Shown here piece after piece: positions 22,475 through 30,041 of a stretch of 40,341 nucleotides of DNA. Below the pieces are notes generated by a model that searched no databases, had not been told where the DNA came from, and worked only from the letters and a program-made list of their open reading frames with translations. The stretch spans positions 1 through 40,341 of the IMG/VR virus record IMGVR_UViG_3300043429_000356. One strand, given 5' to 3'. Origin of the DNA: a virus. Within the stretch, counting starts at the first letter, position 1, and each line of letters opens with the position of its first letter. Both the position numbers and the translations under genes were made by a program.

Positions 22475-22662
22475 AACATCTTATCTTGACATTCCTGATA
22501 TTAGGTGTTATGATAACGCCACATAAAGTAGAAAAGAAACATACCTACCGCACCATCTTCGACTATGATCCTAACAAGCAAGAGTTGATTGAACTTTGCT
22601 GCCCACGCAAACCAGATCCTCTATCACCAATGCAACACTTGCCACACCCACAGACTTTCTAA
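22471..22662 (+). CDS. Small signal-anchored protein, 63 aa
   Basis: An N-terminal hydrophobic segment (residues 2-16) precedes a short polar tail with a CC pair and many prolines. It may be secreted or membrane-anchored. A near-consensus promoter lies inside its first codons. Confidence 0.5.
   Translation: MKHLILTFLILGVMITPHKVEKKHTYRTIFDYDPNKQELIELCCPRKPDPLSPMQHLPHPQTF
22486..22514 (+). promoter_or_regulatory. Near-consensus sigma70 promoter inside the 63-aa ORF
   Basis: TTGACA (22486-22491), 17 bp, TATGAT (22509-22514). Would drive glutaredoxin and following genes. Confidence 0.6.
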
Positions 22663-22673
22663 ATGGAGATATC

Positions 22674-22907
22674 ATGATTACAGTGTATTCAAAAGATCAA
22701 TGCGTATTCTGCGACAAAGCAATCACCCTTCTAAAACTAAAAGCCAAGGATCATGTTGTCTATAAGTTAGGCAAGGACTTTGACCGAGACACGATTTTGG
22801 AAATGTTTCCAGACGCTAGAACTTTTCCTATTATCACTATTGACAAAGAGTTCATTGGCGGCTATAATGAGTTGGAGAAAATGATCAATGAAGGAAAACT
22901 CAAATGA
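22674..22907 (+). CDS. Glutaredoxin, 77 aa
   Basis: The thioredoxin-fold start ITVYSKDQCVFCDKAITLL holds the CVFC redox pair (residues 9-12). TFPIITIDKEFIGGYNELEK carries the cis-Pro and the GG glutathione-binding segment. Size fits T4 NrdC-like proteins. It is a likely electron donor to the RNR at 18637. ATG 22674 with GGAGAT upstream is chosen over far-upstream codons that would overlap another gene. Confidence 0.9.
   Translation: MITVYSKDQCVFCDKAITLLKLKAKDHVVYKLGKDFDRDTILEMFPDARTFPIITIDKEFIGGYNELEKMINEGKLK
22840..22868 (+). promoter_or_regulatory. Consensus sigma70 promoter inside glutaredoxin
   Basis: TTGACA (22840-22845), exactly 17 bp, TATAAT (22863-22868), in the last third of the glutaredoxin gene; it would start transcripts for the gene at 22904. 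Confidence 0.7.
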
Positions 22908-23839: not shown

Positions 23840-24307
23840 ATGGCGCAGATCAAGATTTACGGATCAGCTAAAAAGATGGAAAAGCGTGAAATCAAAGAGG
23901 CGTCGATATTCTTTTGTGATAACCTACTGGGCAAAAGGCTTAGTAAGTATGTCCTTGTGAAGGTAAGATTGCGTAAGAACTTCTACAAAAACACCAAGTG
24001 TTTCGGCATGGCTACATGGACTGATATCGATGCCAAGAACCATAATCATCGGGAGTTTGAGGTAGAGATAGAGTCCGATTTGGGTCCTGTCTATCTACTA
24101 AGAACATTGGCACACGAGTTAGTCCATGTTAAGCAGTATGCCCGTAAAGAGTTGGTTGATATGTGTTCGGGTAACTATCAAATGTGGAACAAGGTAATGT
24201 ATAACGAGAACATTGTAGGCTATAAGAACCTACCATGGGAAAAAGAAGCTATCGAAAGAGAGAAAGAGTTATACGTTCTTTGGAGACAACACCAGCTTAG
24301 ATCATGA
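23840..24307 (+). CDS. SprT-like zinc metalloprotease, 155 aa
   Basis: H92-E93-L-V-H96 (LRTLAHELVHVKQY) forms the zincin site, and a downstream YKNLPWEKEAIEREK segment gives the usual third-ligand region of SprT-like proteins. Common in T4-type phages; the eukaryotic relative SPRTN cleaves DNA-protein cross-links, so a repair role is possible. RBS GAGAGGG. Its stop overlaps the ATG of the P450 gene. Confidence 0.8.
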   Translation: MAQIKIYGSAKKMEKREIKEASIFFCDNLLGKRLSKYVLVKVRLRKNFYKNTKCFGMATWTDIDAKNHNHREFEVEIESDLGPVYLLRTLAHELVHVKQYARKELVDMCSGNYQMWNKVMYNENIVGYKNLPWEKEAIEREKELYVLWRQHQLRS

Positions 24308-25437
24308 CTTATGACCCACACTCAAATGAATGGCTTCTGAATAGATTTGAAATCTATAAGGACCTTCGTGCAAGGGATAGAGCCTACTGGTGTGAAAAGT
24401 ATGGCGTGTATGTCATCACACGTTATGATGATGTTTTCTATGTCCTTAATAATCCCAAAATCTTTTCATCAGCCAAAGGTAACTTGCTTATTGAGAATGG
24501 TGAAAGGTTTGGTAAGACGTTAGGTGCCTCTGACAATCCTGTCCATAAAGAGTATAAAGACATTGTTCTACCAGCCTTTGGTAAAGAACATATGAAAAGG
24601 CTTTCGGACTCCTTTACCGAGAAGGCAACCGAACTACTATCAAACAAAGATATCATTAACATTTCAGAAGTGACGGAAGAATTGAGTGCCTGGTTCTCAA
24701 CTGAAATGTTAAACTCACCATTAGACAAAGAAGAAGCCAACCAACTAACACTACATACACACAGGCACCACCCGCTTGTATCAGTAGAACATCCAGATCC
24801 AAATGCAGATGAAAAGTTTAGACCATTATTTGCTCGTGCTAATATGAGAGCATCATCAGGACCTGGAGTGTTTAACGAATACATCAATAACAATCCAAAA
24901 CGATTACAAGTTCCTGCTTTGATACTGGGACCAATGATGACTGGACCTGGTTCAACTGGCGGCGCCTTGCAGTATCTAACATTGGATCTATTCTATGAGA
25001 ACAAGTTAGATGAGGTTCTAAACGATAGATCCCTTATACCACAGGCTGTTAATGAGTCACTCCGCTTTCGTGCGGCAGTTGGCAGATTTACCAGAACTGT
25101 TACAGAGAACGTTATACTACACGACACATTCTTGAAACCTGGTGATAGAGTTGCTATATGTTTGGAGTCTGCTAATCGTGATCCAGATAGATGGCATAAC
25201 CCTGATGAGTTCCTTATCCAAAGGACGGATAAGACGAAACATTTGGCGTGGGGACACGGAACACATGTCTGTATTGCCCTTGCTCAATCAAAGGAAATGT
25301 TACGCATATACCTGAAAGTCTTGTTAGAACAAGTAGGTAAGTATGAAATCCTTACCAAGCCGGAAGACCTAAAATATGTCTTGATGTTTGGCGGGAATAT
25401 TAGTATAATGTCTAATATCATCCTGAGGAAACTATGA
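24304..25437 (+). CDS. Cytochrome P450, 377 aa
   Basis: The sequence follows a soluble bacterial class I P450: YGVYVITRYDDVFYVLNNPKIFSS (33-56), a C-helix region HKEYKDIVLPAFG (81-93), E251-S-L-R254 (ExxR), RDPDRWHNPDEF (292-303), and a heme loop WGHGTHVC with Cys323 as thiolate ligand. Oddities: the I-helix acid/alcohol motif, normally (A/G)Gx(D/E)T, reads TGPGST (213-218) with no acid; the conserved Phe of the heme loop is Trp; CxG is CIA. It is about 20-40 residues shorter than usual. It is coupled to the SprT gene by ATGA and the next gene overlaps its end, so it belongs to the phage operon. No ferredoxin or reductase is in the window. Confidence 0.9.
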   Translation: MTYDPHSNEWLLNRFEIYKDLRARDRAYWCEKYGVYVITRYDDVFYVLNNPKIFSSAKGNLLIENGERFGKTLGASDNPVHKEYKDIVLPAFGKEHMKRLSDSFTEKATELLSNKDIINISEVTEELSAWFSTEMLNSPLDKEEANQLTLHTHRHHPLVSVEHPDPNADEKFRPLFARANMRASSGPGVFNEYINNNPKRLQVPALILGPMMTGPGSTGGALQYLTLDLFYENKLDEVLNDRSLIPQAVNESLRFRAAVGRFTRTVTENVILHDTFLKPGDRVAICLESANRDPDRWHNPDEFLIQRTDKTKHLAWGHGTHVCIALAQSKEMLRIYLKVLLEQVGKYEILTKPEDLKYVLMFGGNISIMSNIILRKL

Positions 25438-28672: not shown

Positions 28673-29272
28673 ATGATGACTGTCGATATCAAGACCTTCC
28701 TTAAAACTGCATTCCAAAATATTCGGTCATCCAAAAGGACCGATGTTTTGCACGAGGCGGTCCTCAACCAGCTAATCCAAAATTATCCTGATTATGATAA
28801 GTATGAGTGGAGATTTGAGGAACGCATCAAGAAAGATGGTTATGGAGGCACCTTTGATATCGACATCATTGGATTTCTAAAAGGTAAAGCTAAGATTGCC
28901 ATTCTTTGTAAATGCATAAACTCCAACTATGGTAAGAATAGTAAGAATTATGCCAACACCACCATTGGCGAAGCGTATCGACTTGTATATGCGGAAGATG
29001 TTAAAATTGAAAAAGCCATCTTCGTAAACATCTACCCGACAATCTGTCCGTCTTTTGACAAATCGGGTAAGGTTAATCACTATGACAATATCGAAAAGTA
29101 TAAATCAAGAACAAATGTAGGTCAGGCACTATTCAACCTTTATGGTAAAAAGGTAGAAGAGGTGAATGTTTCGTATGATATCGAAAACATATCCAATAAG
29201 AAGTCCAAAAAGGACTTCGACGTTATCAACCCAATCAACATAAGCGAGTTTAAACTTAAATATGCAAAGTAA
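28673..29272 (+). CDS. Restriction-endonuclease-like protein, 199 aa
   Basis: ATG 28673 (or 28676) follows GGAAAGGAA; the GTG at 28634 lies upstream of the transcription start. The N-terminal 85 residues resemble a PD-(D/E)XK fold: Glu28 in the first helix, FDIDIIGFLKGKAKIAILCK with Asp62/Asp64 and Lys80. The acid of (D/E)xK is replaced (L-C-K), so activity may be reduced or the acid relocated. It overlaps the adenine-type methyltransferase gene by 11 bases under a shared promoter. A restriction partner is inferred from fold and linkage only. Confidence 0.55.
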   Translation: MMTVDIKTFLKTAFQNIRSSKRTDVLHEAVLNQLIQNYPDYDKYEWRFEERIKKDGYGGTFDIDIIGFLKGKAKIAILCKCINSNYGKNSKNYANTTIGEAYRLVYAEDVKIEKAIFVNIYPTICPSFDKSGKVNHYDNIEKYKSRTNVGQALFNLYGKKVEEVNVSYDIENISNKKSKKDFDVINPINISEFKLKYAK

Positions 29273-30041
29273 TGTTATATATCATGGCAATTGTCTGGAA
29301 GTGATGGATACATTTCCAGACAATTCAATTGACATGGTCTTTTGTGATCTTCCTTATGGAACAACACAAAACCCATGGGACATTCTAATACCATTTGATG
29401 ATCTGTGGTTAAGATACAATAGAATCGTTAAAGATGATGGTGCCATAGTATTGACTGCACAATCACCTTTCGATAAGTTGCTGGCCTGTTCTAATCTAAA
29501 ACAATTTAAGTATGAGTGGATATGGGAAAAGAACAAAGCAACAGGTCATCTAAACGCCAAAAAAATGCCTATGAAGGCACATGAAAGTGTTTTGATCTTC
29601 TACAAAAAGTTACCCGTTTATAATCCTCAGATGACAGACGGCCATAAACCTATGAACATGGTTTCTCCAAAAGATAATGTGCCTAAACCAGAAGTAACCA
29701 GAAACTATGGTCATGTTGAAAAGGTGTTGGGTAATCCTGGCGGTTCAACTATCCGCTATCCTCGTGATGTTATCAAAATACCTGTCATCAACAATGATGA
29801 TCCTAAAAAGTTTCATCCTACACAAAAGCCTATACCGTTGATTGAGTATTTCATCAGGACATATACAAATGAAGGTGATGTGGTTCTGGACAATTGTATG
29901 GGATCTGGCTCAACATGTATTGCCGCTTCCAATCAAAACAGAAAGTATATCGGCATTGAACAGTCAGAAGAATATTTCAATAAGGCCAAACAATGGATCG
30001 AAGAAGAAACTCGAGGTGGTCTATTGGCACATTTTGACTAA
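29262..30041 (+). CDS. Beta-class DNA methyltransferase (N6-adenine or N4-cytosine), 259 aa
   Basis: Motif IV is DLPYG (29-33, in place of DPPY), motif I is DNCMGSGST (210-218), and HPTQKP (185-190) precedes it. The order IV - target recognition - I defines the beta class. The complete length suggests an active enzyme. It may protect phage DNA or form a restriction-modification pair with the overlapping upstream gene. After it, 30042-30170 contains only a stem-loop/promoter cassette. Confidence 0.9.
   Translation: MQSNVIYHGNCLEVMDTFPDNSIDMVFCDLPYGTTQNPWDILIPFDDLWLRYNRIVKDDGAIVLTAQSPFDKLLACSNLKQFKYEWIWEKNKATGHLNAKKMPMKAHESVLIFYKKLPVYNPQMTDGHKPMNMVSPKDNVPKPEVTRNYGHVEKVLGNPGGSTIRYPRDVIKIPVINNDDPKKFHPTQKPIPLIEYFIRTYTNEGDVVLDNCMGSGSTCIAASNQNRKYIGIEQSEEYFNKAKQWIEEETRGGLLAHFD

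Follow-up and report, generated by a model that had tools for sequence, protein, structure and literature searches.

A cytochrome P450 gene lying within a run of phage genes raises the question of whether it encodes a working enzyme that phages have maintained and, if so, what such an enzyme would do during infection. Phage P450s have until now been handled as isolated curiosities, and the sole phage P450 named in PMC9405906 is that of Mycobacterium phage Adler. Here, we address this question for a 40,341-nt stretch of DNA (hereafter, the window) from the IMG/VR virus record IMGVR_UViG_3300043429_000356, in which an earlier note, made from the sequence, had recognized a P450 with unusual motifs (Table 1).

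The open reading frame (ORF) begins with ATG, has no internal stops, and encodes a product of 377 aa. It is matched by the Pfam p450 model (PF00067; E = 3e-16, 59.7 bits versus a cut-off of 22.8), and phmmer identified 392 distinct PDB sequences at E <= 1e-3, with P450-T2 (8FBC) as the top match (1.4e-31). The number of these matches and the Pfam score exclude a chance match. The fold was modelled, as the earlier note had proposed, and the AlphaFold model derived from an alignment of the family (mean pLDDT 85, pTM 0.88) has a P450 fold; more than 1,600 PDB chains match it at E <= 1e-3, and the nearest solved structure is again 8FBC (TM 0.86, 23% identity in the fold alignment). The heme signature with its Cys and the K-helix ExxR are both in place, and the product, as judged by its sequence and predicted structure, is a genuine, intact member of the P450 superfamily, in agreement with its first identification. 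No PHROG family profile covers it.

Table 1. Features of the P450 locus; positions are those of the window.
Feature	Position	Strand	Basis or remark
Upstream gene, 155 aa, HELVH-type metal-binding motif	23840..24307	+	phrog_10499, 3.7e-21
ATGA stop/start overlap with upstream gene	24304..24307	+	Sequence
Phage cytochrome P450 gene	24304..25437	+	Open ORF; Pfam p450; AlphaFold; PDB 8fbc
B-C loop, S55-H81 (SSAKGNLLIENGERFGKTLGASDNPVH)	24466..24546	+	Column counts; alignments; common to CYP203-like P450s
I-helix motif TGPGST (T213-G-P-G-S-T218)	24940..24957	+	Sequence; acid position G216, alcohol position S217
K-helix ExxR, E251/R254	25054..25065	+	Invariant in 26/26 family members
Heme-binding loop WGHGTHVCIA (W316-C323-I-A), thiolate ligand Cys323	25249..25278	+	Cys-Ile-Ala-Leu invariant in 26/26 family members
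ATGA stop/start overlap with downstream gene	25434..25437	+	Sequence
Downstream T4-superfamily conserved gene, phrog_11903, 371 aa	25434..26549	+	PHROG match
T4-type RNase H, marker of conserved block 3' of P450	27082..27942	+	Pfam RNaseH_C, 2.4e-18

The ATGA overlaps reported at both ends of the gene are present, and the genes that they join to it are phage genes. Relatives of the upstream gene occur in the T4-like Caulobacter phage Cr30, P-SSM2, and Methylophilales phage Melnitz, and in Sinorhizobium phage phiN3 and Ochrobactrum phage OC the phrog_11903 gene is located upstream of the RNase H gene. Behind the P450 of the window, the phrog_11903 gene, a small gene, and RNase H follow one another as they do in phiN3, to whose RNase H that of the window is 39.5% identical. 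The position of the P450 is held by a glycosyltransferase in phiN3, by sugar-metabolism genes in Cr30, and by a glycosyltransferase and small genes without known function in OC. Since these contents differ from phage to phage, the P450 occupies a cargo slot of T4-superfamily phages. A host flank, which had already been discounted because of the overlaps, is ruled out by this T4-like synteny, by the conserved gene order in contigs of the same group, and by capsid and terminase genes on the records of relatives.

Also around the P450 are genes for an adenosylcobalamin-type ribonucleotide reductase, ThyX, DNA ligase, a DNA methyltransferase, a primase-like protein, and PhoH. The relatives of the reductase are in alphaproteobacterial phages and those of ThyX in Limnohabitans and Methylophilales phages, and these markers point to a pseudomonadotal host without settling it. 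The DNA adenine methyltransferase (29262-30041) is 76% identical to its counterpart in cyanophage S-CAM7; this similarity exceeds by far that of the other genes compared and suggests a recent exchange. A glutaredoxin-like ORF (22596-22907), judged as such by the CxxC sequence of its relatives (L101:3753-3989), probably serves the ribonucleotide reductase rather than the P450. The window further encodes a 2OG-Fe(II) oxygenase (893-1510; PF13759, phrog_81) of a family that directly flanks the P450 in two related contigs (L056 and L091).

Relatives of the P450 were collected by iterated scans of IMG/VR and were found on more than 40 viral contigs. The earlier description of P450s as rare in phages therefore holds for isolates, given that none of 50,697 phage records had a sequence similar to the window P450 (E <= 1e-3), but not for uncultivated phages. 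Uninterrupted full-length relatives number 39; they share 43-98% identity with the window protein and, when it is included, fall into 26 groups at 97% and 15 groups at 70% identity. The T4-type capsid gene gp23 was identified on 4 of the 16 carrier records tested, including records of 92, 167, and 349 kb, and in L036 and L039 sequence comparison and reading revealed terminase, sheath, tube, and portal genes in the vicinity of the P450. These observations show that the carriers are phages of the T4 superfamily and jumbo phages, and they answer in the affirmative the question, raised with the first description, of whether close relatives are phage-borne. Values of dN/dS ranged from 0.04 to 0.14 across nine family pairs, which indicates that the gene is maintained and not decaying. 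Between the window P450 and its relative in L032, synonymous divergence is ~1 over residues 126-245 and ~0.03 over residues 306-365; this intragenic mosaic indicates recombination between phage strains.

In a phylogenetic reconstruction of 27 phage and 17 bacterial P450s, all 27 phage proteins were separated from the bacterial ones by a single branch (support 100/100) that was present in every one of 200 bootstrap trees, and the stem of this clade measured 1.66 changes per site (alignment column). The sister group (93/76) comprised four CYP203-like alphaproteobacterial proteins with ~26-29% identity, whose genes adjoin those for a 2Fe-2S ferredoxin and an FAD reductase; that of Azospirillum is also near protocatechuate dioxygenase genes. 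The search for the nearest P450 family thus led to CYP203-like proteins by sequence, structure, and tree alike. Collectively, these observations show that the phage P450s form one ancient clade, which probably derived from CYP203-like class I P450s or shares an ancestor with them.

A scan of 84,980 genomes with two peptide patterns recovered no cellular member of the phage clade; the best cellular identity was <=28% over long alignments, and a best segment of 35% (L066) was part of a weak, broken match. Plasmids likewise yielded no close cellular donor, with relatives only 25-29% identical. Profile searches at E <= 1e-34 identified no family member in 385 alphaproteobacterial genomes, where a single protein scoring 199 bits was an ordinary CYP203-like P450, and none in 369 genomes of the gammaproteobacterial class, a search run without a positive control. 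With the same type of profile, phage members scored 505-662 bits versus 225 for the best bacterial proteins. In the reverse direction, no bacterial-type CYP203 was found in viral contigs, and a bacterial CYP query had no match among isolated phages. Within the cellular sequences sampled, the endemicity of the family to phages is well supported. The P450s of L061 and L063, genome records labelled Klebsiella pneumoniae and Bifidobacterium breve, group with those of two MAGs, an aquatic one of the Gammaproteobacteria (L062) and one of the Acidimicrobiaceae (L065); the labels are probably those of misassigned bins.

Residue conservation was evaluated by column counts over 26 family members, leaving out one aberrant member (L054). 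Gly216 of the window P450 occupies the position of P450cam D251, the acid of the I-helix acid-alcohol pair. Fourteen members have Gly at this position and 12 have Ser, such that the missing acid first noticed in the window is real and family-wide; Ser217, which follows it, is invariant. The bacterial sister group has E-S at the same positions. The absence of the acid from every member places its loss before the spread of the phage family, whereas the heme machinery was retained. The Trp of the heme loop and the CIA sequence, which had been listed as further oddities, proved not to be anomalous. The PROSITE-type P450 heme signature admits Trp at the Phe position and Ala in CxA; it fits the window loop and is matched by every phage member except L054, and Phe (14 members) and Trp (12 members) alternate at position 316.

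The propionate-binding residues R264 and H321 are, like Cys323 and ExxR, unchanged in all 26 members. A non-catalytic scaffold could freely lose these residues, and their invariance weakens the suggestion that the protein binds rather than oxidizes its ligand. This pattern of conservation favors heme chemistry in which proton delivery is altered over a mere binding scaffold. In the B-C loop, N60, L61, R68, G74, D77, and H81 are invariant, and T72 is present in 25 of the 26 members, with Ser in the other. Two members depart in architecture: L054 (7998-9071) has two in-frame losses, one a C-helix segment after SN and the other the FGxG stretch of the heme loop, but preserves the remainder of the protein and the reading frame, and L034 (2572-3870) encodes 432 aa with a C-terminal extension of ~50 residues, possibly a fusion.

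The family occupies three unrelated phage neighborhoods. The first reading placed the gene in an early/middle operon, which holds for the window but not for the family, as elsewhere the P450 is part of a late structural operon or of a metabolic cassette. In the late type, as read from the sequence, it is located between tail-fibre-like genes and, mostly, terminase genes (L036, L039-L046, and others). In the cassette, which is found in jumbo phages, it is accompanied by fatty-acid desaturases and a fatty-acid hydroxylase (Pfam), PP-loop proteins that are QueC/asparagine-synthase-like, cupin-like c5 proteins, small c3 proteins (~105 aa), and TctC-like (c28) proteins; that of L098 additionally holds an acyltransferase and a PhyH protein. 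A metabolic island with c7 and c26 PP-loop proteins, c13 desaturases, and c27 is repeated in L057, L093, L096, L098, L048-L050, and L054. The c3, c5, and c7 families had no Pfam match and no PDB sequence match, and a c5 model gave weak cupin matches (TM <0.4 on the query). In two short viral contigs (L051:2759-3469 and L052:407-1470), porin-like, AhpC-like, and AhpD-like genes, read from the sequence, adjoin a P450/c5 pair and represent either unusual phage cargo or bacterial flank. The window yielded no cassette family, and only the 2OG-Fe(II) oxygenase, of the family seen next to the P450 in L056 and L091, is present there. P450s of the cassette type are basal within the phage clade, with the window and late types nested among them, so the gene probably moved out of the jumbo cassette.

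We consider it probable that the window P450 is a working heme-thiolate enzyme of a family endemic to phages, that it is carried as cargo, and that redox partners of the host serve it. Catalytic oxygenation, use of host partners, and a cargo role are inferred here. As an auxiliary metabolic or host-manipulation gene of T4-superfamily and jumbo phages, the P450 would receive heme and electrons (via ferredoxin and ferredoxin reductase) from the host during infection and would oxidize a small host metabolite; the protons for O-O cleavage, usually relayed through the I-helix acid, might be delivered via Ser217, ordered water, or the substrate. Consistent with the earlier remark that no redox partner is encoded nearby, Fer2, Flavodoxin_1, and Fer4_13 domains were absent from the window and 13 related viral records; a phage-encoded partner was rejected on this basis, with the qualification that these 14 records may be fragments and a partner could be encoded elsewhere. 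Supply of electrons by the host is the simplest view, and it agrees with the remark that the viral P450s then known had no encoded redox partners (PMC9405906). P450-T2 takes electrons from several heterologous redox systems (PMC7780096). BmCPR-Fdx2 is one partner system that has served this enzyme.

The substrate may be a small aromatic or carboxylate compound, although this is a guess from analogy. It derives from pocket residues of the B-C loop that are shared with CYP203-like P450s and from the known ligands of the latter. Specifically, N60, L61, R68, and T72 of the window correspond to N65, L66, R73, and T77 of P450-T2, which are among the pocket sites screened when that enzyme was engineered (PMC11334723); the sites are common to P450s that are <30% identical, and their role in binding is presumed. 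P450-T2 binds L-mimosine and emodin, and CYP203A1 is a reported binder of aromatic acids such as 4-hydroxybenzoate (PMC7780096). The genes that neighbor the P450 in jumbo phages point to lipid chemistry instead of aromatics. Alteration of a host lipid, hormone, or signal, as the earlier note proposed, is likewise a guess.

Without the acid, oxygenase activity might be low or nil. Combined with retention of the heme ligand in the family and the lack of an encoded electron donor in the records examined, its loss would fit an unconventional heme protein, such as a peroxygenase, an NO- or peroxide-handling enzyme, an isomerase, a dehydratase, or a ligand-binding heme sensor, which we regard as rather unlikely. 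Several bacterial P450s, among them P450eryF and P450cin, are without the I-helix acid and yet are ordinary oxygenases. In CYP152 peroxygenases, Arg-Pro typically replaces the acid-alcohol pair, whereas the phage members have G/S-S (G216-S217 in the window), and the NCBIfam CYP152 model scored the window protein at 14.7 bits versus a cut-off of 600, which places it outside that family. A scaffold role, in which the P450-derived protein would bind a partner or ligand without heme chemistry as P450-derived glycosyltransferase activators do, is very unlikely. Its TIGR04515 score of 55 bits is weak and falls below the cut-off of 343, and although L054 has lost part of its C helix and its heme loop and yet stays in frame, the other 26 members all keep the thiolate Cys, ExxR, and the Arg and His that bind the propionates.

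Recent capture of a host gene now in decay, which the earlier note would have recognized by frameshifts in other isolates, has a negligible probability. The G+C content of the gene is slightly below that of the window (0.405 versus 0.427), but the ancient monophyletic clade with its long stem, the lack of a close cellular relative, the strong purifying selection, and the uninterrupted full-length relatives lead us to reject it. A different question is whether the P450 is one step of a multi-enzyme phage pathway for a small molecule or lipid that is whole in jumbo phages and has shrunk to just the P450 in T4-like phages. The enzymes that surround the jumbo-type P450, including the acyltransferase and PhyH of L098, and the basal position of the jumbo records relative to the nested stand-alone types would be expected in this case. 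However, the neighbors are common without a P450, which is present in only 9 of at least 79 IMG/VR loci of the cupin-like c5 gene, the window holds no cassette gene, and the cassette may be a mere cargo island; we consider such a pathway quite unlikely. A composite history, in which an ancient phage family that activates oxygen without the acid was born in such a jumbo-phage pathway and T4-like phages took the P450 alone, is likewise unlikely. Our preferred reading remains a working P450 carried as cargo and supplied by the host.

A search of open-access papers yielded no description of this family. On the sequence evidence, the group is genuine and maintained, with an altered oxygen-activation motif, and it appears to be new as a family and known as a kind. 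A coherent P450 family so far confined to phages of the T4 superfamily and jumbo phages, deeply divergent and under strong selection, suggests that oxygen-dependent heme chemistry is a stable component of some phage gene repertoires. The family provides a natural set of acid-less P450s for studies of proton delivery, and it raises the testable question of which host metabolite's oxidation benefits the phage.

Among viral P450s, those of giant viruses (mimivirus, pandoravirus, and Yasminevirus) are likewise virus-encoded but are mostly 11-17% identical to the window protein (TM about 0.5-0.7), eukaryotic-type by annotation, and of unrelated origin. The closest viral predicted structure is a CypX-type P450 of an uncultured Caudovirales phage (A0A6J5NCR8, BFVD; TM 0.86), which shares a phage origin but only 22% identity in the fold alignment and is probably a separate phage P450 lineage. 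According to the account of Lamb et al. (2019) given in PMC9405906, Mycobacterium phage Adler carries a P450 on its genome without encoded redox partners, as does the window; the two do not appear to be close relatives, as the isolate records held no match.

Among bacterial P450s, the 4-methoxybenzoate O-demethylases CYP199A4 and PbdA share the fold (TM about 0.78-0.82) at 20-24% identity and are not nearest by sequence; unlike the window P450, CYP199A4 has the D251/T252 acid-alcohol pair. The CYP203A subfamily, which includes CYP203A1 of Rhodopseudomonas palustris and P450-T2, is the best structural and PDB sequence match as well as the sister in the tree. By convention, a CYP family comprises proteins with ~40% or more identity to a named member, and the phage P450 falls outside CYP203, as it is 23% identical to 8FBC when the folds are aligned and 26-29% identical to CYP203-like relatives. 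The phage proteins also differ in the loss of the acid (E-S in P450-T2, G/S-S in the phage members), in CIA in place of CxG, in a shorter stretch before the I helix, and in being phage-borne without a linked ferredoxin or reductase. What the two have in common is the B-C loop 'SSAxGNLxxExxxRxGxTLGxSDxPxH' and an 'RF' motif.
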